Positions 510 to 25,700 of a stretch of DNA of 27,493 nt are shown here, piece after piece. Below the pieces are notes generated by a model. The model saw nothing but the letters and a program-made list of their open reading frames with translations, was not told the origin of the DNA and searched no databases. The stretch lies in the IMG/VR virus record IMGVR_UViG_3300030104_006308, positions 1 through 27,493 of that record, one strand, 5' to 3'. Origin of the DNA: a virus. The translations under genes were made by a program, and so were the position numbers. Position 1 is the first letter of the stretch; every line of letters begins with the position of its first letter.

Positions 510-546
510 AGTTTTCCACAGTTGTTGTTAGTTTCTGTGGAAAACT
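510..546. repeat. Perfect 12-bp inverted repeat (hairpin)
   Basis: AGTTTTCCACAG (510-521) is the exact reverse complement of CTGTGGAAAACT (535-546), separated by 13 nt. Each arm contains one TTTTCCACA box. It starts one base after the stop of the 51-aa gene, so it may act as a transcription terminator, although no T-run follows directly, or as a paired protein-binding site. Confidence 0.8.
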
Positions 547-570
547 CTTAGAATAAGTATATTTTACCCT

Positions 571-578
571 CATAAATA
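571..578 (+). promoter_or_regulatory. T4-type late promoter-like motif
   Basis: CATAAATA matches the NATAAATA pattern of T4-like late promoters. No gene follows for 300 bp, so it would transcribe the non-coding region; it may be a chance match in AT-rich DNA. Confidence 0.25.
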
Positions 579-710
579 GCAAATTAAATATACTTTAGTG
601 TTTTAATCGTTTTCCACAATGTTGTTAATAATGTGATGTAATATGTGGAATAAGTGTTAATTAGTGGTGAAATTGTGTGGATAAATGTACCTCAGAGTAG
701 TGATCTTAGC

Positions 711-734
711 GAGCGTATTATAACACGAACGCTC
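711..734. repeat. Short inverted repeat
   Basis: GAGCGT (711-716) pairs with ACGCTC (729-734) across a 12-nt loop. A second, weaker one follows: ACCCT (747-751) with AGGGT (766-770). Both lie between DnaA-box-like sites. Their function is unknown. Confidence 0.4.
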
Positions 735-822
735 TTAAATTACAAGACCCTCGTTAACACTTTGTAGGGTTATGTTGGTTTCATAATATATAAAGTTTTC
801 CACATAAATATCATACACTTAG

Positions 823-2589: not shown

Positions 2590-3252
2590 ATGCCAGCCTT
2601 AATTTGTAATCTACCTGCATATGAAGTGTGGGTTCGTAAAGAGTATCTTACCGATCATCAGAGTGGACATGGTGAATATGTAAAGGGCGTTTGGGTATCG
2701 GCAAAGTCGATACCTGGACGTGCAATGTATTTTGAAACATATCTACCAGAGTATGCGGCAATGTATGATAAATTACCTATAAGTGCGTTTTTATCATCAC
2801 CAGAGAAACCAGATCCTGATATGGAGTTACATAATCTCCAGTTTTGGAATTGTATGGACTATGGTGTAGTTGCAGTGCAGAAGCAATTTATTGGTTCAAT
2901 GCACTATGAAGTCATGACAAGAGATTATGGCCTTCAAACGGGTACATATATTTGTACTTTAGACAATTATCATCAAGATGCTGATCTAATTGACTACTCT
3001 ACAAGTGAAAATCCACCTGAACATAAGTCTCATAACCTCATTGAGTTAGATAATGGTCAATTTTGTCTTTATCCGAACAATCGAACACGAATTTATGACA
3101 ACAGTTTGACACCTGAAACACCAAAAGTGCCTGATTTTAAGGTTTCAACGGTATTTTATCAGGTTGAAAACGGTCATGATCGTGATGGACTCGGAAATGA
3201 CGAAAATTATTTCTGGAAAACTAGCAAAGAGAGGAAAAATGACAGCGAGTAA
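2590..3252 (+). CDS. Conserved cyanophage-type protein of unknown function, 220 aa
   Basis: The protein begins MPALICNLPAYEVWVRKEYL and ends in YFWKTSKERKNDSE. It looks like a single globular, strand-rich domain with many aromatic residues (for example LQFWNCMDYGVVAVQKQF near residues 83-100, then GTYICTLDNYHQDADLIDY) and no signal peptide, membrane segment or enzyme motif I can identify. HNLIELDNGQFCLYPNNRTRIYD (about 148-170) has the look of a beta hairpin. From memory a protein with this opening is widespread in T4-like cyanophages and sits upstream of gp25, where its role is unknown. It starts 3 bp after the previous stop and overlaps the next gene by 14 bp, so translation is likely coupled on both sides. 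Confidence 0.75.
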   Translation: MPALICNLPAYEVWVRKEYLTDHQSGHGEYVKGVWVSAKSIPGRAMYFETYLPEYAAMYDKLPISAFLSSPEKPDPDMELHNLQFWNCMDYGVVAVQKQFIGSMHYEVMTRDYGLQTGTYICTLDNYHQDADLIDYSTSENPPEHKSHNLIELDNGQFCLYPNNRTRIYDNSLTPETPKVPDFKVSTVFYQVENGHDRDGLGNDENYFWKTSKERKNDSE

Positions 3253-6000: not shown

Positions 6001-9000
6001 ATGATATCAACAGATCTCCAAAGAGTACAATTACAAAATATAGTTGAGAATCAACTTCCTGCTTTTGTCAAGGATGATTTTCCATTAGTTGGTGAGTTTT
6101 TAAAAGAGTATTATAATTCTCAAGAATATTCGGGTGCTCCTGCAGATTTAATTCAAAATATAGATGAATATATTAAATTAGAAAATTTAACAACTAACGC
6201 AGATAAAACAGAATTAAGAGATGATATATCATTTAATACTACAACTATAAACGCAACTTTTAATTTACAAACTGAAATTTTTGGAACATATGAGTTTCCT
6301 GAAAGATATGGTTTAATTCAAATTGATAGTGAAATTATATTGTACAAAGAAAAAACAGATAATAGTTTTTTAGGATGTGTAAGGGGGTTTAGTGGTGTAA
6401 CCTCATACGGCACTCATGATCAATTACAATTTTCAATTTCAGATGCAAACCCACACTTAGCTGGAACTAAGATAATAAATTTAAGTGCTTTACTATTCAA
6501 TCAATTTTTATTTAAATTAAAAAAACAAATATCACCAGGATTTGAAAATAGGACGCTTGATTCTGATTTAAATCAAAGATTATTTTTAAGTCGAGTAAAG
6601 GATTTTTATGAAACAAAAGGAACAGAAGAAGGATTTAAAATATTATTTGGTGCTTTATATGGCGAGAAAGTAGATTTAATTGATCCTAAAGATTTTTTAT
6701 TTAAACCATCAAACGCAGAATTTGTTGTAACTAAAGATTTAGTTGTAGAGGCGATAGACGGAGATCCTTTACAATTATTGAATAGCACAATATATCAAGA
6801 TGCTAATGTAGATTATGGGATAACTGAGGCCTATGCTCCAATTAGTGATATTGAAAAAATAAGTATTGATAATGAAGATTACTATAAATTAAAATTAGAT
6901 TTTGGTTTTGCAAAAGATATTCCATTAGATGGAAGCATTTTTGGTGAATTTTCTGTCCATCCAAATACTAAAATAATTACTCCTGTTTCAGTTGGATCTA
7001 GTACGATAGATGTTGATTCAACAATTGGATTTCCAAATACTGGAGAGTTATATACTGAATTTGCAACGGGAGTTGTTGGTATATTAACTTATAGATCGAA
7101 ATCTATAAATCAATTTTTTGGAGTAGGAATAGCAAGAACAACCGATGCTGGCATAACCACAGCAATTAATTCAACAGAAAATATTAGATTGAACGTAGAG
7201 GCTTATGGTTACGTTGGTTTTGGATTTACCACTAAAGTATCCATGAGAGTGGGGTCTGTATTATCAGACATATCTATCCCAGACAATACATATGATTACG
7301 ACAAAAATGATAAAATAAAAATAAAGTCTTTAGGAATAACAACTTCATCAGCAAGAGTTGACGATTGGTTTTATAATATTGCAACAAAATATGACGTAAA
7401 ATCAATTACATTAATTGATGAGTCTGATTTTACATATACTTTAGTTACGTTTGCTAAAAATAATTTAAGATTGGGTGATCAGGTAGTTGTTGTTGATACA
7501 ACTGGTAATACTAAAGATTCGACAGTTAGTGATGTCATAAGTGAATTTAGTTTTTCCATAAGAGGTCAAGGATTAATATCAGACGCAAAATTAACTGTTG
7601 AAAGAAAAATATTAAGAGGAAAGGTTGAAACATCTCTTTCAAATTATTCTTATATTGAAAACCTTTTTGCAAACGTTCAAAATACATATGCAAGATTTAA
7701 TCAAGACGTAATGGTTGCCTCCTCAGGCATACCAAACTACTTTGATAGTCCTTTAGATTTTTATGATAGAAAAATTACTTTAGATGGTGAATATGATGGA
7801 GCCGAATTTACTATTTTAGGTGTAGATGATCATGGTTATTACACAGGAGACCCTGTTTACTACAGTCCTTTTACCATAGAATCAAAAGATTTTTTTGGAA
7901 ATATTACAAGAGTGATTAGTAAGTTCCCTGAAATGAACGAGGGTGTATTTTACGTAAACAGATTAAATAAAAATCAATTTCAACTTGCTACAAGTCCAGC
8001 TAATATATCTAATAATTCATTTGTTTCAGTATCAGGTATTGTAACTTCTAATACTTTAGAGCCTTTTGAATTTCATGATAAAACAGTTCAACATCAATTT
8101 TTAGTAAAGGAGTTTAAAAATCCAATAAATGACGACGGAGTTTATACTACTGAGCCTGGTAGTAGAGTTGGAATGCTTGTTAATGGTGTCGAAATTTTAA
8201 ATTACAAATCTAGTGAATCAATTTATCATGGACCTATTAAAAAAATTAATGTTGCATCAGAGGGTGATGGTTTTGATATAATAAATCCACCACTAGTTCA
8301 TATATCAGATAATGTTGGATTAGGTGCTACAGGTCATGTTTCAGTAAAAGGATCTCTTCAAGAAATTAATGTTGAAGATACTGGTTTTGATTATGTTACA
8401 AAACCCACTATCACAATTAGCGGTGGTAACGGAAAGGGAGCAACCGCATCTGTAAATACAACTTTCATAGAATATTCAGTTTCTTTTAACTCTACATCAG
8501 ATTCGGCTCGTGTAGATTTAAATAATGATACAATTGGATTTTCAACTTTTCATAAATTTAACAACGGTGAAAAAGTCATTTATAAGACAGATGGACAAAC
8601 AGCAGTTGGTGGAATATCCACTGACGCAATTTATTATGTTCACACTGTCGGAGTTTCTACCGTAAAATTATATGCGGATGAAACACAAGCTGTAAATGCA
8701 GGTTTAGGAACTATCTCCCTGTCTAGTTTTGGAGTTGGAGTTCATAGATTACAATCTGTTAATCAAAAACAAATTATTTCTAATATTGTTGTTAATAATC
8801 CAGGTGAGGGTTATGAAAATAAAAAAAGAACTATAATATCACCAACAGGGATTAACACTTCCTTAAATCAAATTAATATTAATGATCATGGATATGAATC
8901 AGGAGAAATTGTAAGATATTCTTTTGATGTAGATAAACTTACAGGTATAAATTCAAATACAGATTATGTTATAACCTCGATTGATAAAGATCATTTTAAA

Positions 9001-12000
9001 TTATCAAGTGTCGGAGTGGGAACAACTTCTAAATTCTTATTTTACGATACTAAACAATATTTAAATTTAACATCTTCAGGATTGGGAACTGGGTCTCACT
9101 CTTTTAATTATATACCGATTACAGTTTCACTTGATGGAGAGATTGGAATTACAACTTTTTCGGGACAAGATTTTACAGCAAAAATTCAACCTCTTTTTAG
9201 AGGCCCAATAACTTCAGTTCAAGTCACTGGAGAGGGAAAAGAATATGGATCATCAGAAATAATAAATTATGATCGACAACCTCTAATAACTTTAGATAAT
9301 GGATCTGGAGCTCAAATTGACGGTATTATTAGTAATGGTAAAATTGTAGAAGTGGTAATCAATAATCCTGGAGAGGGATACAATGCTCCCCCTAGATTAA
9401 CTGTTTCAGGAACTGGTGATTTTGCTAAATTAGTTCCCATAGTAAATGATGGTAGAATTACAAATGTAATAATTAAAAATGCTGGTATAGGTTACACTGG
9501 AGGCATAGGAATTGGAGTGACGGTTGATGGGTCAAATGCAAAATTAAGAGCAGAAATTAAAACATGGGGAATTAATTTAGTTAAAAAATATGAAAATATT
9601 ATTTCTAATAATGATGGTATTTTAGAACCTGCAGAAAATAGTGAATTTGGAATTGAATATACTCATTTATATGCACCTCGTAAATTGAGAGAGTCTGTAT
9701 ATGTTAAAAATCAAGATAATAAAATAAAATATGGATTAGTTGATTTACAAATATTAGATGGAAATGAGGTATCTCCAGAGTTTCACTCTCCAATTTTAGG
9801 TTGGGCATATGATGGTAATCCAATATATGGACCATATGGATATACAACCAGATCTGGTGGTGCGATTAGATTAATGAAGTCTGGATATGAGGCAGTAACA
9901 GCACTAAACCGCCCTCCTCTTTCATCATATCCTTTAGGATTTTTTGTTGAAGACTTTGAATTTAAAAATTCTGGTGATTTAGATGAGCATAATGGACGTT
10001 TTTGTGTAACTCCAGAATATCCTAGAGGAGTTTATGCGTATTTTGCCACAATAAATCCATCCTCAATTGAGAGTTCAGGGCCTTTTGAAGGATTTAAGTC
10101 ACCAGTCTTCCCTTATTTTATTGGATCGTCATTTAAATCAAAACCAAACGAGTTTAATTATGATATAAGTGTTAATCAAAAAACTTATGATTTTAATACA
10201 TCTGCTTGTTTTAGAAATACAACTCCATATTCATTAAATGAGGAGAACGCATATTATGATTTCTTATTTCAACCAAATAAAAAAAGAGAGCAATTAATCA
10301 ATATAACTTCTGTTTCAAGAGGATCTATTGATTCTGTTGGAATTTTAACAGGAGGTAATAATTATCAGGTTGGTGCTGGTATTTCTTTTGACTCTGATTC
10401 AGAATTTCAAAAAGCAAAATCTAATGTTTCATCAGTTGGTGGTAAAATAGTCACTAATATTAGCGTAGCCTCTAGCACTATATCTAATTTAGAAATATCC
10501 CCCTTCAATCTTAATGGAGAATATATTGCAATTTCAAGTTCTCCTCATAATTTTAGTAATCTCAATTTAGTTTCATTATCAGGATTTAATACTTCAATTG
10601 ATTATATCAATAGTAGTTTTAATATTGGTGTCAGAACTGAAAGTGTTGCTCTTTCTAAAGATGTTGCTAATACTAATACGACTGGATTGGTTACTTATTT
10701 TGGTATTTCTGGATCTGTAAAAACTGATTTACTCGCAGTTAGAGAAAATGATATATTAGGAATCGGAACTGAGAAAGTTCAAGTTTTAAATATTGATAAA
10801 TTAAATTCTAGATTTAGAGTTTTAAGAGCACAAAAAAATACGGTTAGCAGTGCTCACACAGCAGGGGTGGTAATTACAGAAGATTCTAGAAAATTCACAT
10901 TCAAATCTTCACCAGAAAATAATGTTAAATTCAATTTAAATAAAGAAATTTATTTTGAACCAAAAGAGGCATTAGGAATAGGAACAATAACAGGAGTTGG
11001 TATCGGAACTACAATTTCATTCTCTAATCCTGGTGCTGGTATAACACAAATATTCATACGAACAGAGTCTATATTCCTCCCAGAGCACGATTTAAATACT
11101 GGAGATGTCGTAACATACCAAACTAATACAGGTGACGCTATAGGCGTTTCTACGGATGGTATAACGGCATATAGTTTACCAACAGGGGCACCCCTATATG
11201 TGGGTAAAATTTCAAATGATTTAGTTGGTATTCAAACTTTCGAGGTTGGAATTGGAACAACTGGAACTTTTGTTGGAATAGCAAGCACAACTAAAACTAG
11301 AGGATTATTAAGGTTCACTGGAATCGGAACAGGAACATATCATAGTTTTAAAACTGTAAGAAAAAATGTTGTAAAGGCAGAGGTAAATAGACAAAATGTC
11401 ACTGTGGCCACTGCTTCAACTCATGGATTATTATTTAACGATACAGTTGCTATTGATGTTCAACCAGGAATAGGAACCACTATTTCTGTTAAGTATAATG
11501 ATTTTAACAGAAGAATAGTTTTTAATCCAAAAGACTTTACTGCAAGTAATATTGATATTATTAATAATACGATTACAATTTTAAATCATGAATTTAATAA
11601 TGGCGATAAGGTTATTCATACGTCCACATCATCTTCGGGTGGATTAGAGAATAATAAAATTTATTATATTGTTAGATATTCAAAAGATAAAATTCAACTT
11701 ACTTTAACAAAATATCAAACAACTTTATTTACCCCAGATGTAGTTGATATTACATCTGCATCTTCTGGAACAATATCTGCTATTAATCCATTAACAGATG
11801 TTTATAAAAATAATACTGTTTCTTTTGATCTTTCTGATCCTTCTTTGGCAACTATTGTTGGATTAACTTCATACTCAGCTTTTGATTTAAACATCTATAC
11901 TGATAAAGATTTTAACACTGAATTTTATAGTTCTGGAGAAACAAAATTCTTCGAGGTAAATAAAATAGGAAGTGTTGGACTTACTAGTGATGCTAAATTA

Positions 12001-15000
12001 AATTTAAGCGTTACTAAAAATCTTCCAGATATTTTATATTATAAGTTTACTCCTGTTAATTTAAGTGTAATATCTAAGGAAAAAAATGAAATAGTAATTG
12101 ATAAAGAGGTAGATGGTAATAATCAAATCAATGTAAATGATAGTATTTACTCAGGAGTTTTCAAAGTAACTGGTATTGGTTCAACCACTACATTCAATTA
12201 TAATTTAATTGAAGCACCAGAAAAATCATCTTATAGTTCTGTAGAATCAAAATTAAATTATATTACAAATTCAAAAACTGCTTATGGTTCCATAGCAGAA
12301 ATTGAAACAAAATATCGTGGAAATGGATATGAAAAAATTGTTGGCGTGTCCTCAATTTCATCCAATCTTGGAACAAAAGCTATATTAGAACCAAAAAGTG
12401 AATCCATAGGAAAAATACTTTCTACAAAAATAGAAAACATTGGATTTAATTATCCAAGTGATAACACTTTAAGACCTGTTGCTAATTTACCAGAAATTTT
12501 AAAAATAGAATCATTAACATCCTTTAATGAAATTGGAATAACATCAGCAGGTAAAAATTATACGATAGCACCTAGATTAATAGTCAAGGATGGGTTTACT
12601 GGTAATTTAGTAAATGATGTTGATTTAAAATTTGAATTAGGTAAAACAAAAGTTGAAATAATTAAAAATACTAAAGGAATTTATAATACACCACCTCTTT
12701 TGATACCAACTGGTAATGTAAATGGTATTGGTATTAATACAATATCTTACGATTCAAGCACTCAAAATGTAACCATTGGATTAAATACTGCTTTTAGTGA
12801 TGAATCTCCATTTAATGTTGGGGATAAAGTTTTAATTGAAAATGTTAGTGTTGGTGTAGGAACAACAGGATATGGATATAACTCTTCAAAATACGATTAT
12901 ACACTGTTTACATTAACAGACGTTAATGTTCCTCTAGGAGGAGGTGTTGGATTTGTAACTTATAGTTTGGCTGGCCTCTTGCCAGAGAATGAAAATCCAG
13001 GCAATCATGATGTTTTAAATTCAGCAGGATCAATTATCCCTGAAAAATATTTTCCACAATTTGATATTAAATTGAAAAAAAATGATTTTATATTAAATGA
13101 AGTTGTTTCATCTGGAGTAAAAGTAGGATCTGTAGAAAGTTGGAATTCAACCAGTGAAACTTTAAAAGTTTCTTCAAATTTAAATTTTGATGTTGGAGAT
13201 TTAATAATTGGTAAAACATCAGAGACGCAAGGAACAATAGTATCAAAAGTTGATTTTGAATCTGAAATCAAATTGTCATCAGGATCAGTTGTTAGATCTG
13301 GATGGAAAAATGAGAGTGGATTTATAAGTAATACTCTTCAAAGGATATCAGATAATTTCTATTATCAAAATTTCTCATATTCATTAAAATCAAAAGTATC
13401 GATAGACAAATGGGATAGTGCAGTTCAATCTTTAGCTCATCCCTCTGGTTTCCTTAAGTTTAGTGATTTAGTAGTAGAGTCAACTGATAGGGATGTAACA
13501 AAGTCTGGTTTAGAAAGTGATCTGTTTATTTTCTTAGATGTTATTGAAGATATAGATTTAAATTGTTATTCAAGTTTTGATTTAGTAACTGAAAATTCAT
13601 TAAACATAAGTGATAATGAAAAAGCATCAAATCAAATATATTTCAATTCTAGAGTTTTAACTGATTTCTTTGAATCAGTTGGTAATAGGGTTTTAGTAAT
13701 TGATGATGTTAGTACAGAATTTAGTAGTGATCCAAGGCCAACTAAATTCTCAACTGCTGATGAATTCCCTATTTCCCAGAGATCTAAGAAATTCCTTACT
13801 CTTGTAAAAGATGCAACCTTTACTGGTGAAAGACAGACAATGATTGTTTCTCTTTTACAAAATGGATCTGAAGGATATCTCAATCAATATGGTAGAGTTG
13901 AATCGGTAACTGATTTAGGAAGTTTTGATTTTGCTGTTAGTGGTAATAATGGACAGTTAAGATTCTTCCCAACTAAATTCCAAAACAATAATTACAACAT
14001 GAGTGTTGTAAGTTTTGATATAATTGGTTTTGCAAACACCACAGGTATCGGAACAACAACTCTTGGAGATGTTGTTAATATCGAATCTACTCAAACCTCA
14101 GTATCTGCTGGAACAACAACCACAATTGTTGGTATTGCCTCTACGTACAGAAGTTCAAAGATAATTGTTCAGATAAATGCTGATAACGGTAGAATGGAAT
14201 ATGATGAACTTAATGTAATTCATGATGGAACAACCGTTGAACTTTTAGAGTATGGACAATTAACAACAGATAATGCAAATAATTTTGGTGGAGCTGGATT
14301 AGGAACTTACATTGCATCTATGTCCACGGGTGATATAAACATTGATTTTGTTCCTCAAGCAGGAATAGCAGCATCTGTTGATACAATTAGAATATCAATT
14401 GCCAGTACTTTATCAACTGGTATTGGAACTCAACATATTGGAGATGGTGCTTTAAGTTTATCAACCTTAGAATCATCATTTACCTCAATCTCTGCATCAG
14501 GCTCTCCTACAGAAAATCTAATCGCACAATATACAATCAACAATACGGTTGGAACAAATGATAAAAATTGTGCTTATTATGTTTTGAGTATTGAAGATAC
14601 AACTAATGATCGCTATGAAATGGCTGAGGTCGTTGTTCTTAATGATAGTTCAGAAGCATATATAACAGAATTTGCAAACTTAACCAGTGTTGCTGGTTTG
14701 GGAACAGTTGGTGCTGCTGTATCTACTTCACACACTCAATTATTCTACACACCAAACGCAGGAATCGATGTTCAAGTTCGTGCTTTTCAGATGAGTCTTC
14801 AGATAGCTGCTGAAGATTCAGATATATCAACCGTTGATTCTGTTAGTTTAACCAACGCATCAATTTCTGGTGGTCAGGGAACCTACGAAGGAACAGGTTC
14901 TGATGTTAAGAGAGCGTTCAATCTGTCTCATGACGGTAGAGATATATTTGCAAGAGAATTCGATGGTAGTAGTTCTTCAGTCATTGATCTTACTAAAAAT

Positions 15001-18000
15001 TCAGTTACCATCCCAGAGCACTTCTTTGTTTCTGGAGAGGAAGTAACATATGCACATGATGCTGATGAGGGAAGTCCTATTGGAATTGCTACAACTACAA
15101 TTACAGGTATAGGAACTACAACTCAACTTCCATCAACTGTTTATGTCATAAAGGTTGATGAAACAACTGTTAAATTTGCTAAAACTCCTGAAGATGCTTT
15201 AAAAACAGTTCCAAATGAATTGCATTTAACATCTCTTGGTGTTGGTGCGGCACATACTTTATTTGCTAGAAATCAAAATACAAAATGTTTGATTGCGATT
15301 GATAATTATATTCAATCTCCAATAGTTTCTACTGCAGTAACAACAAGCACTGTAGCTCTCATGGGTGTGGCAGATAGATTAGTTAGAGTTGTTGGTGTAA
15401 CATCAATTACTGGTGGTGATTTAATAAAAATAAATCAAGAGATAATGAAAGTGAATACTGTTGGTTTTGGATCAACTAATTCACTTCTTGTGGATCGTGC
15501 TTGGATGGGAACAGGATTAGGTATTCATACATCCAACTCTATAGTTACTAAAATTGAAGGTAATTATAATATTGTTGATAATACACTTAATTTTGTAACA
15601 GCACCACAAGGACCAACACCAATTAGTTCCACAACTAATGAACCTGATGATAGAGATTATGTTGGTATAACAACTTTCTCTACTTTCCAAGGTAGAACTT
15701 TCTTAAGATCTGGTGGCGAAAATACAAGTTCTAGACCATATAGCACAAATTACGTTTTTGATGATATTTCAACTCAATTCACTGGTATTGGAAAAACATT
15801 TACTTTAACCTCAGATAAACAAAATGTAACTGGATTCTCTACTAATAATGCAATTGTTTTAGTTAATGGTATTTTACAAGGGCCAACAGGATCGTTAAGT
15901 GTAGAGCAAGATTTTAACTTAAGTGAGGCATCTGGAATAACCACATTGACTTTCACAGGAACTGCTACTTCTTTAGCAACTGATCCAAATAATTCTAATG
16001 TTCCAGTTGGTGGTGTGATTGTATCAGTTGGATCAACTGGTGGATTTGGATATCAACCACTAGTGGCTGCAGGAGGAACTGCAGTTGTATCTGTTGCTGG
16101 AACTATATCATCCATTTCTATTGGTAATAGTGGATCTGGATATAGAACTGGTATTCAAACAATTGTCAACGTTGGAGTTCAGACTTTTAGTGATGGTGTT
16201 CCTGCAATTGAATTTATTGGAACTGCTGCAATTAGTAATGGACATATTGTTAGCATCGCTATTACTAATCCAGGCACTGGATATACATCAACAAATGCAC
16301 CAGAAGTTGTTATTGATGATCCTTTATCTTACTCCAATATACCTCTTGTTTATGGATCAGACTCTTCAGGAATAGGAACTCAAGCATTTGCAAATATTGT
16401 TGTTGGTCAAGGATCAAGTGTAATTGATTTTGAAATAACAAACACTGGTTATGGATACGCAGATGGCCAAGTTTTAACAGTTCCAAAAGCAGGAACAACT
16501 GGTATTCCAACAGATCCAACTAAAACATTTGAAGAATTTAGAATAACACTAGAAGAGACAATCGATGATAAATTTGCTGCATGGCACTTTGGACAATTAG
16601 ATGTTTTAGATAAAATTGATAGTGAATTTGACGGATCTAAGAAAGTATTTACTTTGAAGAAAAACAATTCTCCTATAACAATAAGAGCAAGAGAGGGATC
16701 TAATATTGATGTTCAATCAACAATATTAGTGTTTATTAATAATGTTTTACAAGTTCCAGGTGAAGGTTATACTTTAAATAATGGAAGTATACTATCATTC
16801 CCATCAGCTCCAAGAGGAAGACAAAGTGATGGATCATATGATGGAGATACTTGTAAGATTCTCTTTTATAAGGGAAGTGGTGATATTGATGTTAAATTTA
16901 GAGATATATTGGAAACTGTTAAAAAAGGTGATACCTTAGAAATTCGTGGAGATGCTGATCTCTGTTCAGACTCAATATCTCAAGATAAAAGATTAGTTGA
17001 AGAAGTTGTTTCAACTGATATTGTTAACACTAATGTTTACGATGGTGTTGGTATTAATGGAGATCCATTATGTAAGAGAACTGTTACTTGGTGTAAACAA
17101 GGAGTTGATAAGATTATTAATGGTCAGATCGTAAGTAAGAGTCGTGAAGAATTAGAACCTTTAATTAATCCAACCACTTTTATTATACAGTCTGTTGGAG
17201 TAGGATCTACAGTTGTCTTTACTCAAAGTGTCAAAACATTCTTTGATCCAAATAATGAGGATCAAACAAGTGCTAAAACACAAGAGATTTCAATAGTTTC
17301 TCAAGATACCATAACGGGTGCAGCTGCAACGGCAATCGTTTCTGTTGCTGGAACCATAACATCAGTTACAATATCTGATGGTGGTGTTGGATATACAACT
17401 GCACCAGAGGTTATAATAGGAACTCCTGTTGGATTAGGAACAACAACAAGGGCAGTGGCAACTGCTTCCTTAACTGGTGATACAGTTTCTTCAATTACAG
17501 TTACATCTCCTGGCACTGGATATACAAATACCAATCCACCACAAGTTCTCATCTCTGTTCCATCAGCAATAAAAGAAACAAATAAATCTTCATTGTATGA
17601 AGGTGACTTTGGACAGATTGTTGGAATATCCACTACTTCAGTTGGTGTTGCAACCACTGCTGTTGTATTTGATCTCTTTATTCCGACTAATTCATTCTTA
17701 AGAGATTCTAATATTGTTGGAACTGCAGTCACAATAAGTGGTATTCAAACTGGATATTACTTTACTGTATCCAATAGTAATATTGGTAATGGATTAACGT
17801 CTATATATCAAGATGGGTCTGTTCTAGGAATAGGAACCACATTCGTAGATGGTGTTTATGAAGTTGCTGCTGTGTCTGTGGCAGAAACATCTACACCTGG
17901 AATTGCTAACACTTATGTTGCTAGAGTAACAGCAAGTGTTTCTAGTTTTAATTCTTTATCTGGTGTTGGTTCAAGTGAAATATTTGGTGAATTCTCTTGG

Positions 18001-18141
18001 GGTAGAATAACTTTAGGAGATAGGGCTAGCACAACTGTTAAGTCCTTTAACGCATATACTCAAAACGGATTTACAGGACTTTCAACATCTGCTGTTGTTA
18101 GTAGGGTAACTCCATTGAAGTTTAAAGATTATTCTGCATAA
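6001..18141 (+). CDS. Giant gp7-like baseplate/tail structural protein with YHYH-like domain, 4046 aa
   Basis: Probably a virion structural protein at the gp7 position of the wedge (between gp6 and gp8). The N-terminus (QLQNIVENQLPAFVKDDFPL, FLKEYYNSQ, then FLSRVKDFYETKGTEEGFKILFGALYGE near 200-227) resembles the wedge protein that follows gp6 in cyanomyoviruses. The identification with gp7 rests on position and that resemblance. At about 1255-1381 lies a YHYH-like domain (LGWAYDGNPIYGPYGY, LDEHNGRFCVTPEYP, YAYFATI, FPYFIG). The rest is a mosaic of repeats: seven HxxxxG(D/E)xV units, GxGY units, about 20 GIGTT-like motifs, three copies of a beta module at about 2610-2937, and 'EII...RG' units near 104-146 and 3139-3188. 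No signal peptide or membrane segment is seen. It begins 36 bp after gp6 and has no in-frame stop in 12 kb. T4 gp7 has about 1030 residues, so this is roughly four times larger. Confidence 0.8.
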   Translation: MISTDLQRVQLQNIVENQLPAFVKDDFPLVGEFLKEYYNSQEYSGAPADLIQNIDEYIKLENLTTNADKTELRDDISFNTTTINATFNLQTEIFGTYEFPERYGLIQIDSEIILYKEKTDNSFLGCVRGFSGVTSYGTHDQLQFSISDANPHLAGTKIINLSALLFNQFLFKLKKQISPGFENRTLDSDLNQRLFLSRVKDFYETKGTEEGFKILFGALYGEKVDLIDPKDFLFKPSNAEFVVTKDLVVEAIDGDPLQLLNSTIYQDANVDYGITEAYAPISDIEKISIDNEDYYKLKLDFGFAKDIPLDGSIFGEFSVHPNTKIITPVSVGSSTIDVDSTIGFPNTGELYTEFATGVVGILTYRSKSINQFFGVGIARTTDAGITTAINSTENIRLNVEAYGYVGFGFTTKVSMRVGSVLSDISIPDNTYDYDKNDKIKIKSLGITTSSARVDDWFYNIATKYDVKSITLIDESDFTYTLVTFAKNNLRLGDQVVVVDTTGNTKDSTVSDVISEFSFSIRGQGLISDAKLTVERKILRGKVETSLSNYSYIENLFANVQNTYARFNQDVMVASSGIPNYFDSPLDFYDRKITLDGEYDGAEFTILGVDDHGYYTGDPVYYSPFTIESKDFFGNITRVISKFPEMNEGVFYVNRLNKNQFQLATSPANISNNSFVSVSGIVTSNTLEPFEFHDKTVQHQFLVKEFKNPINDDGVYTTEPGSRVGMLVNGVEILNYKSSESIYHGPIKKINVASEGDGFDIINPPLVHISDNVGLGATGHVSVKGSLQEINVEDTGFDYVTKPTITISGGNGKGATASVNTTFIEYSVSFNSTSDSARVDLNNDTIGFSTFHKFNNGEKVIYKTDGQTAVGGISTDAIYYVHTVGVSTVKLYADETQAVNAGLGTISLSSFGVGVHRLQSVNQKQIISNIVVNNPGEGYENKKRTIISPTGINTSLNQININDHGYESGEIVRYSFDVDKLTGINSNTDYVITSIDKDHFKLSSVGVGTTSKFLFYDTKQYLNLTSSGLGTGSHSFNYIPITVSLDGEIGITTFSGQDFTAKIQPLFRGPITSVQVTGEGKEYGSSEIINYDRQPLITLDNGSGAQIDGIISNGKIVEVVINNPGEGYNAPPRLTVSGTGDFAKLVPIVNDGRITNVIIKNAGIGYTGGIGIGVTVDGSNAKLRAEIKTWGINLVKKYENIISNNDGILEPAENSEFGIEYTHLYAPRKLRESVYVKNQDNKIKYGLVDLQILDGNEVSPEFHSPILGWAYDGNPIYGPYGYTTRSGGAIRLMKSGYEAVTALNRPPLSSYPLGFFVEDFEFKNSGDLDEHNGRFCVTPEYPRGVYAYFATINPSSIESSGPFEGFKSPVFPYFIGSSFKSKPNEFNYDISVNQKTYDFNTSACFRNTTPYSLNEENAYYDFLFQPNKKREQLINITSVSRGSIDSVGILTGGNNYQVGAGISFDSDSEFQKAKSNVSSVGGKIVTNISVASSTISNLEISPFNLNGEYIAISSSPHNFSNLNLVSLSGFNTSIDYINSSFNIGVRTESVALSKDVANTNTTGLVTYFGISGSVKTDLLAVRENDILGIGTEKVQVLNIDKLNSRFRVLRAQKNTVSSAHTAGVVITEDSRKFTFKSSPENNVKFNLNKEIYFEPKEALGIGTITGVGIGTTISFSNPGAGITQIFIRTESIFLPEHDLNTGDVVTYQTNTGDAIGVSTDGITAYSLPTGAPLYVGKISNDLVGIQTFEVGIGTTGTFVGIASTTKTRGLLRFTGIGTGTYHSFKTVRKNVVKAEVNRQNVTVATASTHGLLFNDTVAIDVQPGIGTTISVKYNDFNRRIVFNPKDFTASNIDIINNTITILNHEFNNGDKVIHTSTSSSGGLENNKIYYIVRYSKDKIQLTLTKYQTTLFTPDVVDITSASSGTISAINPLTDVYKNNTVSFDLSDPSLATIVGLTSYSAFDLNIYTDKDFNTEFYSSGETKFFEVNKIGSVGLTSDAKLNLSVTKNLPDILYYKFTPVNLSVISKEKNEIVIDKEVDGNNQINVNDSIYSGVFKVTGIGSTTTFNYNLIEAPEKSSYSSVESKLNYITNSKTAYGSIAEIETKYRGNGYEKIVGVSSISSNLGTKAILEPKSESIGKILSTKIENIGFNYPSDNTLRPVANLPEILKIESLTSFNEIGITSAGKNYTIAPRLIVKDGFTGNLVNDVDLKFELGKTKVEIIKNTKGIYNTPPLLIPTGNVNGIGINTISYDSSTQNVTIGLNTAFSDESPFNVGDKVLIENVSVGVGTTGYGYNSSKYDYTLFTLTDVNVPLGGGVGFVTYSLAGLLPENENPGNHDVLNSAGSIIPEKYFPQFDIKLKKNDFILNEVVSSGVKVGSVESWNSTSETLKVSSNLNFDVGDLIIGKTSETQGTIVSKVDFESEIKLSSGSVVRSGWKNESGFISNTLQRISDNFYYQNFSYSLKSKVSIDKWDSAVQSLAHPSGFLKFSDLVVESTDRDVTKSGLESDLFIFLDVIEDIDLNCYSSFDLVTENSLNISDNEKASNQIYFNSRVLTDFFESVGNRVLVIDDVSTEFSSDPRPTKFSTADEFPISQRSKKFLTLVKDATFTGERQTMIVSLLQNGSEGYLNQYGRVESVTDLGSFDFAVSGNNGQLRFFPTKFQNNNYNMSVVSFDIIGFANTTGIGTTTLGDVVNIESTQTSVSAGTTTTIVGIASTYRSSKIIVQINADNGRMEYDELNVIHDGTTVELLEYGQLTTDNANNFGGAGLGTYIASMSTGDINIDFVPQAGIAASVDTIRISIASTLSTGIGTQHIGDGALSLSTLESSFTSISASGSPTENLIAQYTINNTVGTNDKNCAYYVLSIEDTTNDRYEMAEVVVLNDSSEAYITEFANLTSVAGLGTVGAAVSTSHTQLFYTPNAGIDVQVRAFQMSLQIAAEDSDISTVDSVSLTNASISGGQGTYEGTGSDVKRAFNLSHDGRDIFAREFDGSSSSVIDLTKNSVTIPEHFFVSGEEVTYAHDADEGSPIGIATTTITGIGTTTQLPSTVYVIKVDETTVKFAKTPEDALKTVPNELHLTSLGVGAAHTLFARNQNTKCLIAIDNYIQSPIVSTAVTTSTVALMGVADRLVRVVGVTSITGGDLIKINQEIMKVNTVGFGSTNSLLVDRAWMGTGLGIHTSNSIVTKIEGNYNIVDNTLNFVTAPQGPTPISSTTNEPDDRDYVGITTFSTFQGRTFLRSGGENTSSRPYSTNYVFDDISTQFTGIGKTFTLTSDKQNVTGFSTNNAIVLVNGILQGPTGSLSVEQDFNLSEASGITTLTFTGTATSLATDPNNSNVPVGGVIVSVGSTGGFGYQPLVAAGGTAVVSVAGTISSISIGNSGSGYRTGIQTIVNVGVQTFSDGVPAIEFIGTAAISNGHIVSIAITNPGTGYTSTNAPEVVIDDPLSYSNIPLVYGSDSSGIGTQAFANIVVGQGSSVIDFEITNTGYGYADGQVLTVPKAGTTGIPTDPTKTFEEFRITLEETIDDKFAAWHFGQLDVLDKIDSEFDGSKKVFTLKKNNSPITIRAREGSNIDVQSTILVFINNVLQVPGEGYTLNNGSILSFPSAPRGRQSDGSYDGDTCKILFYKGSGDIDVKFRDILETVKKGDTLEIRGDADLCSDSISQDKRLVEEVVSTDIVNTNVYDGVGINGDPLCKRTVTWCKQGVDKIINGQIVSKSREELEPLINPTTFIIQSVGVGSTVVFTQSVKTFFDPNNEDQTSAKTQEISIVSQDTITGAAATAIVSVAGTITSVTISDGGVGYTTAPEVIIGTPVGLGTTTRAVATASLTGDTVSSITVTSPGTGYTNTNPPQVLISVPSAIKETNKSSLYEGDFGQIVGISTTSVGVATTAVVFDLFIPTNSFLRDSNIVGTAVTISGIQTGYYFTVSNSNIGNGLTSIYQDGSVLGIGTTFVDGVYEVAAVSVAETSTPGIANTYVARVTASVSSFNSLSGVGSSEIFGEFSWGRITLGDRASTTVKSFNAYTQNGFTGLSTSAVVSRVTPLKFKDYSA
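9781..10143 (+). other. YHYH-like domain inside the giant protein
   Basis: About residues 1261-1381. The motifs GWAYDGNPIYGPYGY, LDEHNGRFCVTPEYPRGVYAYF and PVFPYFIGSSF follow the order and spacing I know from the YHYH domain family, a domain found in some secreted and phage structural proteins whose activity is not established. It interrupts a run of GxGY-type repeats (last copies near 1121 and 1159) and is followed by more structural sequence. Confidence 0.7.
13828..14811 (+). repeat. Three tandem beta-rich modules in the giant protein
   Basis: At about residues 2610-2677, 2717-2801 and 2856-2937 the pattern is strand (TMIVSLLQN / KIIVQINAD / YYVLSIEDT), E or Y-rich strand ending in a hydrophobic stretch (YGRVESVTDLG / LNVIHDGTTVELLEYGQL / MAEVVVLNDSSEAYITEF), then LGxx.A.S, a short strand (LRFFPTKF / INIDFVPQAGI / TQLFYTPNAGI) and a final VS/RISIA/MSLQIA strand. 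The order is the same in all three, and copies 2 and 3 are the closest. Confidence 0.6.
16081..17560 (+). repeat. Duplicated SVAGT-GxGY modules in the giant protein
   Basis: VVSVAGTISSISIGNSGSGY (about residues 3362-3381) recurs as IVSVAGTITSVTISDGGVGY (about 3780-3799). Each is followed 40-50 residues later by a second unit, NPGTGYTSTNAPEVVIDDP or SPGTGYTNTNPPQVLISVP. At DNA level TCTGTTGCTGGAAC is identical in both copies, indicating a fairly recent block duplication. Confidence 0.65.
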
Positions 18142-19732: not shown

Positions 19733-22700
19733 ATGTCTCAGGAAACCAATCTTAACGTAGCTCCCTACTTTGATGATTTTAATGCAAGTGATGACTATTA
19801 TAAAGTGTTGTTTAAACCTGCCGTTCCAGTTCAGGCAAGGGAGTTAAATAATTTACAATCTATATTACAATATCAGATTGAAAAATTTGGTCAGCACTTT
19901 TTTAGAGAGGGTTCAAAGGTAATTCCTGGTAATACTTCTTACAATGATCAATATCCTGCATTAGAACTTCAACAATCATATCTTGGAGTAGAGTTATCTA
20001 ATTATATCGGACAGTTAGTTGGAGTAAAAATAACTGGATTAACCTCAGGTGTTACTGCGATAGTAGATAAAGTTTTATTTGCTAAAGATTCTGATAGAGG
20101 AAATCCAACTCTTTACATTAATTATTTGCAATCAGATTCAACAAATAATGCATCTGAATTATTTTTTAATGATGAGTTAATATCTGCGGATATTGATATT
20201 TTAGCAGCAAATACTGTAATTTCAGCTGGCGAACCTTTTGCCAACACTTTAGTTCAAAATACAACATCTTTAGGATCTGCATTTTCAATTAGAAATGGAG
20301 TATATTTTGCAAAGGGTCAATTTTTAGAAGTTCAGGATGAAACTATTTTATTAGATCAATACTCTAACACTCCAAATTATAGAATAGGACTTTTCATTAG
20401 TGAGAAAATAATTAATGCAGATATGAATCCTGCGTTAAATGATAATTCAAGTGGTTTTAATAATTTTTCAGCACCTGGTGCAGATAGACTGCAAATAACC
20501 ACGTCTTTATTTAAAAAACAATTAGATGATTACGATGATGATAATTTTATAGAATTAGCAACAGTAACTGAAGGAAATATTGTAGCCAAAAAAACTGGGT
20601 CAGATTATAATATCATAACAGATGAACTAGCAAGAAGAACTTTTGCAGAATCTGGAGATTATTATGTTAAACCCTTTAATGTTTCAGTTAAAGAGTCTTT
20701 AGATAACTATCAAGGTAATAATGGTGTTTTTACTCCTGGTCAATTGACACCATCTGGGAACGTTCCCTCTGGTGACATTGGTTTGTATAAATTATCTCCA
20801 GGCAGAGCGTTTGTTAAAGGATATGATATTCAACTAAATGGATCTACCTTTTTAGATTTTAATAAACCAAGAACAACAAAAACATTAAAAGATCAAGCGA
20901 TAGATTATAATACTGGTGCTACATTAAAAATTAATAATACATTTGGAAATCCTCAAATAGGACTTGGTAATACTTATGTTTTAAGTTTGAGAGATTCTAG
21001 AGTTGGTTCTGCAGCTACTCTTCCCTCAGGAAAGGAAATTGGATTAGCGAGAGTATATGATTTTGATTTAAATTCTGGATCTTACAATACTAATAATCCT
21101 AATATTAATGAATGGGATTTAACATTATTTGATCTTCAAACAGTATCTGAAATAACATTAAATGAATCTATTACTTTATCTGTTCCCACGCATATAAAGG
21201 GTAAATTTAGTGGAGCAACTGCTTTCTTGAAATCATCAGTTTCTGCAGGGACTGCTCTAACTGTTTATGAAGTAAATGGAGATTTTATAAAAAATGAAAA
21301 CTTTATTATTGATGGCGTAGAAAATACTAGAGTTGCAGTAGCAGTTACTAACTTTGGAATATCTGATGTTAGATCTGTTTTTGGTAATGTTAACGGCCCA
21401 GATATGAATACTGTTGGTGCTGCACAAACATTTTCTGCTGATATTATTCAAACACCTATAACAAATGTTGGAGTTGCAACTATCACAACTGTTAATGCTG
21501 TCGGTGTTAGCACAATTAGAAGTAGTAATCCTAGATTTCCTGGTCAAATAAAAACAGGTAACTTAGTTCAATTTAGTAATATTACCTCTAGTGATCCTGT
21601 TTTCGCTTCAGTAACTAGCATAGGATCTAGTCATGTCAATATAACTGGAGTAACAACTGTTACAGGAGTATGTGATGGCAAATTACCCTCATCATTACTT
21701 CAAGTTTCTGATCTTACAGTTATAGGATCTGATCTTGAAAAAGCAGATGATCTATCTTTCTTTACAAAATTATCAAAATCTAATATATCTAACGTAGATT
21801 TAACCGATGCCTCTTTAGTAATTAAAAAAACTCAAAGTGTTAATATTAACGCTAATCAATTATCAACGGCTGTTGAGACAGGAACTAATGAAACTTTCTT
21901 ACCTTTCACTCCATCAAGATACTCTTTAATTAGAAGTGATGGAACAACTGAAGTTTTAACTAGTGATAAAGTTCAAATTAATACTGCATCAAACAGATTA
22001 GAAATTTTTGGATTAGGTGGTAATGATGATGCAACATTAATAACAACTTTAAAGAAACAAAAACCAAAAGCAAAGGTAAAACTTCAAAATAGAGTTAATA
22101 CTTTATTGGTTGATAAATCAACAAACTCTGCATCTGGTTTAACAACAACAACTTTAAATGATGGTTTAACTTTTGGTAATTTTCCTTTTGGAACTAGAGT
22201 CCAAGATGAGCAAATTTCTTTAAATGTTCCTGATGTTTTTACAGTTTATAAAATTTATGAATCAACAAATACATCAGATCCTTCTGCTCCAACCTTAGTA
22301 TTAAGATCATTAACTGGTGTTACAGGTAAAACATCTGATTTAGTAATAGGTGAAAAAATAAAAGGTAAAACAACTCAAGCATGTGCAGTTTTAGCAGAAA
22401 ATGTAACTGATTTTAAAATATCTTTCATCGATGAGAATCAAATTAATTTCAAAGAGGGTGAAACTGTAGTATTTGAAGAATCCAATATTGAAGCCGTTAT
22501 TGTGACTATCGACACTCCTAGTATTGATATTACATCATCTTTTAAATATGAAAATGGACAAAAAGAGGATTCTTATAATCATTCATCAATTGTTAGAGAA
22601 CCAAAAACTAACGCACCAACCAAAAAGTTAAAAATATATTTTGCTAATGGAACTTATCAATCAACAGATGATGGTGACATAACAACTGTTGATTCTTATT

Positions 22701-25700
22701 CAAATTTCAATTACACAACAGAAATATCAACAGTCAACAATATCAGAAATACTGATATTCTTGATATAAGACCAAGAGTTTCAGAATATGTTGTATCAGT
22801 TGATACTAGATCCCCTCTAGAATTTTTTGGCAGAACATTTAATGCATCAGGTAATTCTGCTGCTAATATTTTAGCATCTGATGAAACTATTTTAACAGAT
22901 TTTTCTTACTATCTTGGTAGAATTGATACTATCTACTTAACAAAAAATGGAACTCTTCAAGTTAAATTTGGAGAACCATCAGATAGACCTGAAGAACCAA
23001 TTACTGTTGATGATGCTTTAAAAGTTGCGACTGCATTTTTACCACCATACGTTTATGATACTTCAAATATCTCTTTAGATCTTTTGGAATATAAGAGATA
23101 TAGAATGCAAGATATTAGAGGACTGGAAAATAGAATTAAATCTTTAGAATATTACACCACACTCTCTTTACTAGAATTAAACACATCTAGTTTGTTTTTA
23201 CCAGATTCATCAGGTATAAACAGATTTAAATCTGGATTTTTTGTTGATAATTTTACATCTTTCTTATCTCAATCCAATTTAACCTCATATAAGAATAGTA
23301 TTGATATTTTATTCAATGAATTAAGACCAAAACATTATACTACCTCTGTTGATTTACAACTAGGTCCAGTTGAAAATATTACTGCGGGACGAGATTTAAA
23401 TTTTGCAATACCACAAGGATCTAATATCAAAAAAACTGGTGATATTATTACATTAAATTACGATGAAGTTGAATTTTTAAAACAACCAAATGCTACAAGA
23501 ACAGAAAGTGTAACTCCCTTTATATTAAGTTTTTGGCAAGGTAATATTGATTTAACTCCTGCATCCGATGGTTGGGTTGATATTGAAAGACTTGAGGCTA
23601 ATGTTATAAATGTTGAAGGCAATTTCAATCAACAAGTTCAAGATTTAGCAGATCAATTTGGAGTTGATCCACAAGATGGTTTTGGATCTATTTTATGGAA
23701 TTCTTGGGAAACTTTTTGGAGTGGAGAAACTAGAAATGATACAAGGTGGGATATTTTATCTAGTAACACAACTGAAAGTGGAAACTTTAGAACAGAACAA
23801 GGAGTAAGAGAATTAGTAACAACGACAGTTGAAGATAGACGAGAGAGAAGAACTGGAACTCGAGCTGTGGTTACGGAACAATTTGATATGACCTCTCAAG
23901 GGGATCGTCTTATCAGTAGGGATCTTGTATCATTTGTAAGATCTAGAAATGTTCAATTTGTTGGTAATAGAGTTAAACCATCCACTAGGTTATATGCTTT
24001 CTTAGATGGTATTGATGTTACTAGATATTGTATTCCAAAATTGATTGAAATATCAATGGTTTCTGGAACTTTCCAAGTTGGAGAAAGGGTGACTGGAACA
24101 ACTAGACCGTTAGGAATTTTACCAATAAGTAATGATGATGCTAATCCATCAATAAGATTTAGAGTTGCTCAATCAAATCATTTAGAAGGTCCATATAATA
24201 GTGCAACTAAAACATATGGTCAAAGTCCATATGTTTCTGAGGTTGTTCCTGCGTCTTACTCTTCTACATCAACAACTATAAACGTAGATACTTTCTCCCT
24301 TGCTAATCAACCAGAAGGAACATATTTTGGATGGATTGAGAAGGATATGATATTAACGGGTGAGACTAGTGGTGCTTTAGCAGTTATATCTGAAGTTAGA
24401 TTAGTTTCTGATATTAGTTCCAACATACTTGGAAGTTTGTTTATCCCCAATCCAAATATATCAAATTTCCCTAAATTTGAAACTGGTGATAAAGTATTTA
24501 CATTAACAAATAGCATTAATAATGATCAAAATGATGCAACAACGGTAGCGACCAAAGATTACTCTGCAGTTGGTATTTTAGAAACAATTCAAGAAGATAT
24601 AGTTTCTGTTAGAAATGCCCAGATAGCTTTACAAGAAGTATCTGAAGAGAGAAGAGTTCAAGGAGCAATTGTAGGATCAGTCACTGGAGAAGCTCAAACA
24701 TTCTCCAGAACATGGAGATTTAGAGATCCATTGTCTCAATCATTCCAAGTTGAAGAAACAACTGGTGTGTTCGTAACAAGTTGTGATGTTTTCTTTGCAA
24801 CGAAGGATGATAATGATCTTCCTGTTACTATGCAGATAAGAACAATGCAGGGTGGAGTTCCTACAAGAAAAGTTCTTCCTTTCTCTGAGGTTAGTTTATC
24901 ACCATCTGAAGTAAATGTTTCTAATGACTCATCATTATCAACAACATTTACGTTTAAATCTCCAATATATTTGGAAGGTACTATAGAGTATGCGATAGTT
25001 CTTTTATCAGATTCTACAAAATACGGTGCTTACATTTCTAGAGTTGGAGAGGTTGATCTTCAAACTCAATCATTTGTATCAAATCAACCTTATCTTGGAT
25101 CATTATTTAAATCTCAAAATGGATCAACTTGGGAACCAAGTCAATGGGAAGATTTAAAATTTACTTTATATAGAGCTGATTTTATTACTCAAGGAAATTT
25201 TGAGTTATATAATCCAGAGTTATCTCAAGGTAATCATCAAATTGCAAAATTATTACCTGATCCAATAAATGTAACCTCTAGAAAAATTAAGGTTGGAATT
25301 GGATCAACTTTACAAGATACTGATTTAGCCTTTGGAAATACAGTTTTACAACATGGTAGTAATGCCACTGGTATATATGTTGCTAATGCTGGAATTGCAA
25401 CAGGAACTTTAAATATTATCAATGCTGGTATTGGGTTTACTCCATCAGCTGGTGGAGTTACATTCCCAGAAGTTCCTCTAATTAATATCACCTCTGCTGG
25501 TAATAATGCAACTGCTGATATTACAATTCAAAATGGAGTGGCTGTTGGTGCTACAATCGTAACTGGTGGATCTGGATATGTTCCAGGTGATGTTTTAGGA
25601 ATAGGAACAATTGGTCTTAATAATTTAGGATTAAATGCTAGATTATCATTAGTTTCAATCGCAAATACCAATCAATTAATTATTGATAATGTACAAGGTG

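Follow-up and report, generated by a model that had tools for sequence, protein, structure and literature searches.

An array of cyanobacterial DnaA boxes upstream of gp25 and gp6 in T4-like cyanophages as a candidate replication-initiation region

A non-coding gap in a viral fragment from IMG/VR contains a control region, conserved among T4-like cyanophages and acting in cis, which is organized around an array of cyanobacterial DnaA boxes and probably binds host DnaA. The array most likely is part of a replication-initiation region, although its function as an origin is inferred. The boxes are specific to one locus, are helically phased, are associated with a core that is conserved and with a promoter of the early type, and are independent of the neighbouring gene.

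In the literature searched, no description of DnaA boxes in T4-like cyanophages, nothing relevant to a decoy function and no experimentally mapped replication origin for these phages were found. According to a review (PMC2984593), Syn9 has been predicted to have one theta origin, and the array locus may already have been noted in that prediction. DnaA boxes in foreign replicons are already known from plasmids (PMC4674748). T4-like cyanophages are abundant marine viruses, and the array pinpoints a locus open to experiment in model phages (Syn9 52,565; S-PM2 19,231; Syn1 58,713), raising the question of whether host DnaA is needed for phage replication or for shutting down the host.

DnaA boxes in the non-coding gap

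The window, i.e., the whole stretch of DNA that was analysed, is an IMG/VR fragment of 27.5 kb and belongs to a Kyanoviridae-like phage. In it, the gene for a glycosyltransferase-like protein with 82% identity to those of S-SM2, Bellamy and S-B05 is followed by gp25, by gp6 and by a gp7-like gene of great length. From position 510 to the ATG at 882 no credible gene was found, in keeping with the non-coding gap of the original prediction; a minus-strand ORF (340-582) overlaps the coding frame upstream of the gap. The first gene downstream of the array is a small ORF on the plus strand (882-1043, phrog_12516, no assigned function), which is swapped for unrelated genes in other lineages. Downstream of gp6, the window contains two very long ORFs, 6001-18141 (4046 aa) and 19733-27166 (2477 aa), of which the former occupies the place of the gp7 baseplate wedge initiator in relatives. 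Between the glycosyltransferase and gp25, positions 2590-3252 correspond to phrog_3704 (labelled ferredoxin), and at this place S-SM2, S-B05 and SynMITS9220M01 carry a gene annotated purM.

Five exact matches to TTWTNCACA are located in the gap. Box 1 (512-520, plus strand), box 2 (536-544, minus strand), box 3 (610-618, plus strand) and box 5 (796-804, plus strand) have the sequence TTTTCCACA, and box 4 (676-684, minus strand) has the sequence TTATCCACA; a near-match with one mismatch, TATTCCACA, is found at 644-652 on the minus strand. Boxes 1 and 2 are mutually inverted with a start-to-start distance of 24 bp. A recount reproduced all these positions, the predominance of TTTTCCACA (four of the five boxes) and the sole further match of the window outside the gap, at 13050-13058 on the plus strand. 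The original prediction had called this form cyanobacterial, and TTTTCCACA is indeed the published cyanobacterial DnaA box; the binding of paired boxes by domain IV of cyanobacterial DnaA is cooperative (PMC4674748).

The total of six TTWTNCACA matches in the whole window equals the chance mean (6.07), so the signal resides in their clustering. In 200 dinucleotide shuffles of the whole window no 295-bp stretch contained more than three boxes, and none of 5,000 dinucleotide shuffles of the gap reached five (mean 0.13, maximum 3). A cluster of DnaA boxes beyond chance, as is expected for a DnaA-dependent origin of the bacterial type, is present.

Conservation of the boxes in relatives, a point on which the original prediction could have failed, was assessed in an alignment of seven homologous gaps. 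Boxes 1 and 3 are fully invariant (9/9 columns each), followed by box 2 and the near-match (6/9 each) and box 4 (4/9), while box 5 has no invariant column; for comparison, 36 of 150 columns outside the boxes are invariant. At the level of sequence the array is conserved in relatives, box 5 not strictly so.

Locus specificity in cyanophage genomes

When 80 IMG/VR relatives were analysed together with the window, the density of TTWTCCACA was 0.36 per kb over the 1.6 kb that precede the glycosyltransferase gene versus 0.008 per kb downstream; in many of these relatives the stretch available lacks a box altogether. In 27 cyanomyovirus genomes the word is sparse, mostly 2-10 copies per genome. Tight pairs were identified in 14 of these (Syn9, S-PM2, S-SM1, Syn1, Syn19, S-CAM22, S-RIM44, S-RIM2, ACG-2014d, ACG-2014b, S-SM2, P-TIM68 and two large IMG/VR records), and all pairs found are located 2-8 kb upstream of gp6. 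The two IMG/VR records are possibly close to listed isolates, so that the 14 genomes should not be taken for as many independent lineages. The other 13 genomes, including P-HM1, P-HM2, P-SSM2, P-SSM4, P-RSM6, Bellamy, S-B05, SynMITS9220M01 and S-RSM4, have no tight pairs. The array is therefore not essential to the group, and since the boxes are absent in about half of the genomes, any role they play would be lineage-specific or replaceable.

To avoid a prior choice of word, all 9-mers were counted in 13 complete genomes, with a pair defined as two copies 9-60 bp apart and the locus as 1.5-9 kb upstream of gp6. Only TTTTCCACA pairs tightly at the locus in at least four genomes (11/13), and all 14 tight TTTTCCACA pairs of these genomes are at the locus upstream of gp6. 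A similar box density elsewhere would have counted against the original prediction; tight pairs occur nowhere else in the 13 complete genomes.

IMG/VR was also scanned for inverted pairs TTTTCCACA-N3-33-TGTGGAAAA without reference to context. Among the matches listed, 61 of 119 loci contained module genes (glycosyltransferase, gp25, gp6 or small neighbouring genes). With the reversed control word, none of 120 loci had a gp25, gp6 or glycosyltransferase match, and one control locus weakly matched (26%) another protein of the window. Fifty of the remaining 58 loci were searched over whole contigs, and 15 of these encode gp6, in all 15 cases 3.0-12.6 kb downstream of the pair (among the matches listed). 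Many of the other loci among the matches listed are short, or GC-rich and unrelated, and the latter indicate that TTTTCCACA pairs are not exclusive to cyanophages.

Box spacing, conserved core and promoters

In distinct cyanophage sequences, the spacings of inverted pairs are 12-15, 21-25 and 33-35 bp and those of direct pairs 11-12 and 19-23 bp, with almost nothing between; some of the sequences are related, so these counts are not independent. Within these ranges, inverted pairs concentrate at 13, 23-25 and 34 bp and direct pairs at 11-12 and 20-22 bp. The same spacing rule holds whether a lineage has its boxes inverted or direct. The spacings correspond to the helical repeat of DNA, which speaks for proteins arrayed on double-stranded DNA.

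Next to the boxes, the 60 bp at 548-607 have a GC content of 18%, which is the 1.3rd percentile of the window and agrees with the AT-rich surroundings described in the original prediction. By composition, this stretch is a possible DNA unwinding element, and an AT-rich element adjoining the boxes is a feature of an origin.

Alignment and a profile search identified a conserved non-coding core, TAGTGATCTTAGCGAGCG, at 698-715 on the plus strand. Of 13 cyanomyovirus genomes, 11 carry a single strong copy each, in every case at 2-8 kb upstream of gp6. The profile had been trained on ten of the 11 matching genomes, and Bellamy, in which the core is present and the boxes are absent, is an independent match (E = 2.7e-6). 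In the 11 sequences measured, the exact boxes precede the core by 29-110 bp, counted from the box start, with the two outer boxes of the window at 169 and 193 bp. A second conserved non-coding element, containing CCCTAACCTACAGAGGTGACAA, is located at 1174-1235 of the window, upstream of the phrog_2626 ORF; this block recurs in Bellamy, S-SM2, SynMITS9220M01 and P-TIM68, and more weakly in S-B05 and AG-345-E15.

An early-type promoter flanking the boxes had been proposed, and a rightward one (TTGACA-17-TATACT, 11/12 match) is predicted at 823-851 on the plus strand. Of the 13 sequences scored, 11 have a predicted rightward promoter of the sigma-70 type scoring 9 or more in the segment, versus 17% of random segments; in P-TIM68 it lies upstream of the phage's own boxes, and S-PM2 and Syn1 have none. 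On the minus strand, a leftward sigma-70-type promoter with an extended -10 (TTGTAA-17-TATAAT) is predicted at 717-745. It is convincing in the clade of the window (the window, loci L010, L017, L023, L037, L040, L047 and L050, S-SM2 and Bellamy) and in ACG-2014b, and not convincing in Syn9, Syn1, Syn19 and S-PM2. A leftward primer promoter as a general feature was therefore rejected.

The first genes downstream belong to at least three unrelated families across lineages. The element is thus independent of any particular gene, which speaks against an operator dedicated to one gene.

Replication origin and alternative readings

T4 starts replication from R-loops and is not known to use host DnaA. 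For the array, we give an even chance to a DnaA-assisted origin. Host DnaA would bind the phased boxes cooperatively, the bound DnaA would help to open the AT-rich DNA or would keep an early transcript open as a primer, and phage replication would start at the array, where boxes, AT-rich DNA and early promoter stand in a fixed order. That a large part of the T4-like cyanophages replicates from a single host-DnaA-dependent origin upstream of gp25-gp6 is a bolder proposal, which we regard as rather doubtful. If true, phage replication would be tied to the light- and clock-regulated DnaA of the host, unlike the R-loop origins of T4. The array suggests that these viruses use or capture host DnaA. 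Expression of cyanobacterial DnaA is light dependent.

The original prediction of a candidate origin is upheld in its reading of the boxes, their cyanobacterial form, the AT-richness, the promoter and the conservation. Against an origin stand the missing skew switch, the missing DnaA-trio and the 13 of 27 genomes without tight pairs, as do the dispensability of DnaA in Synechocystis and the T4-type recombination-replication proteins that T4-like cyanophages carry (PMC2984593). In S-SM2 and P-TIM68, the two genomes tested, cumulative GC skew runs monotonically past the locus, with no switch, although a one-sided transcription bias may mask one. In picocyanobacteria, DnaA was found in six of the eight genomes searched, and an exact TTTTCCACA directly beside dnaN in two of the eight; the other six have near-match boxes or none there. 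Both dnaN-adjacent sites (host oriC L454 and L456) are followed by the DnaA-trio CTACTACTACTA, which is absent at all phage boxes examined. If the array is an origin, the basal unwinding system of the host is thus not copied.

Compared with known systems, the array resembles the cyanobacterial chromosomal oriC in its box word, its several boxes and its AT-rich neighbourhood, but has neither a DnaA-trio nor a dnaA/dnaN neighbour. Its spacings (11-12, 13 and 21-25 bp) also differ from the 9-bp tandem boxes at the Prochlorococcus oriC L456. With DnaA-box plasmid origins, stated for some plasmids (PMC4674748), it shares host DnaA boxes on a foreign replicon; here, however, the replicon is a lytic T4-like phage, and no plasmid-type Rep system was identified. 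In a T4-type origin, an early or middle promoter would give a primer transcript, and early-type promoters are predicted in the array segment. In T4, oriE (79355, in gene 5) and oriF(uvsY) (115321, beside gene 25) are near genes 6 and 25, as is the array with its position 2-8 kb upstream of gp6, but in T4 a long distance separates genes 25 and 6, and the positional likeness is therefore loose. T4 oriE also resembles the array in combining an early promoter with repeats (PMC3016281), although its iterons are 12-nt direct repeats, unlike the array. A T4 review on origin initiation does not mention DnaA (PMC3016281).

The main rivals of the origin reading are titration of DnaA and control of early transcription. 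In E. coli, datA is a cluster of DnaA boxes outside oriC that titrates DnaA and stops new rounds of host replication. The array is likewise a DnaA-box cluster outside oriC, but it is on a phage and beside a conserved core and early promoters. As a titration site, it would multiply with the phage DNA, soak up host DnaA and halt new host rounds without being an origin. Perfect boxes in phased clusters would be good binding sites for DnaA (PMC4674748), the missing DnaA-trio and skew switch are as expected for such a site, and loss in some lineages suits an accessory function. However, 2-5 boxes per genome are a modest number, and a sponge, which could sit anywhere, would not have to stand at a set distance from core and promoter, whereas the boxes do so across lineages even beside unrelated genes; synteny alone could nevertheless hold the array in place. 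We consider titration unlikely, though the strongest of the rivals.

Only a little less probable is a transcription switch, in which host DnaA or a protein of the same specificity on the array would control the early promoters around the core. The strong rightward promoter in the segment of most genomes speaks for it, as do the leftward promoter of the window's clade, which points into boxes 1-4, and the position of box 5, which precedes the -35 hexamer at 823 by 18 bp. In most genomes, however, about 125-195 bp (summed distances) lie between the starts of the boxes and the rightward -35 hexamer downstream of them, in several the boxes overlap the end of the upstream open frame, the first downstream genes are unrelated between lineages, and box 5 is not fully conserved.

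Recognition of the box word by a phage-encoded protein, e.g., an initiator, would be a coincidence and is improbable. T4 oriE offers a precedent, with iterons and its own RepEA and RepEB proteins (PMC3016281), but the word in the array is the host DnaA box letter for letter, including the TTATCCACA variant. Far less probable is an RNA hairpin or terminator formed by the inverted pair at 512-544. Although AGTTTTCCACAG and CTGTGGAAAACT can pair, this reading was rejected, since the boxes are direct and not inverted in S-SM2, Syn1 and S-RIM44, the spacing is that of the DNA helix and a search for terminator-like sites gave none. A search for RNA families gave no Rfam match. Chance clustering in AT-rich DNA, with which the box total of the window would agree, has a negligible probability and is refuted by the gap shuffles and by the recurrence of the word at the same locus in distant relatives.

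Two further observations concern the host genomes. In G008 and G009 no Bac_DnaA (PF00308) match was obtained and dnaN is present; these may be incomplete single-cell assemblies or may have lost dnaA. A conserved TTTTCCACA/TGTGGAAAA pair, 44 bp apart, is found in a gap away from dnaN in G007, G009 and G005 (L566, L567 and L568, near 1480-1560) and also in G008, and is possibly a regulatory or titration site for host DnaA.
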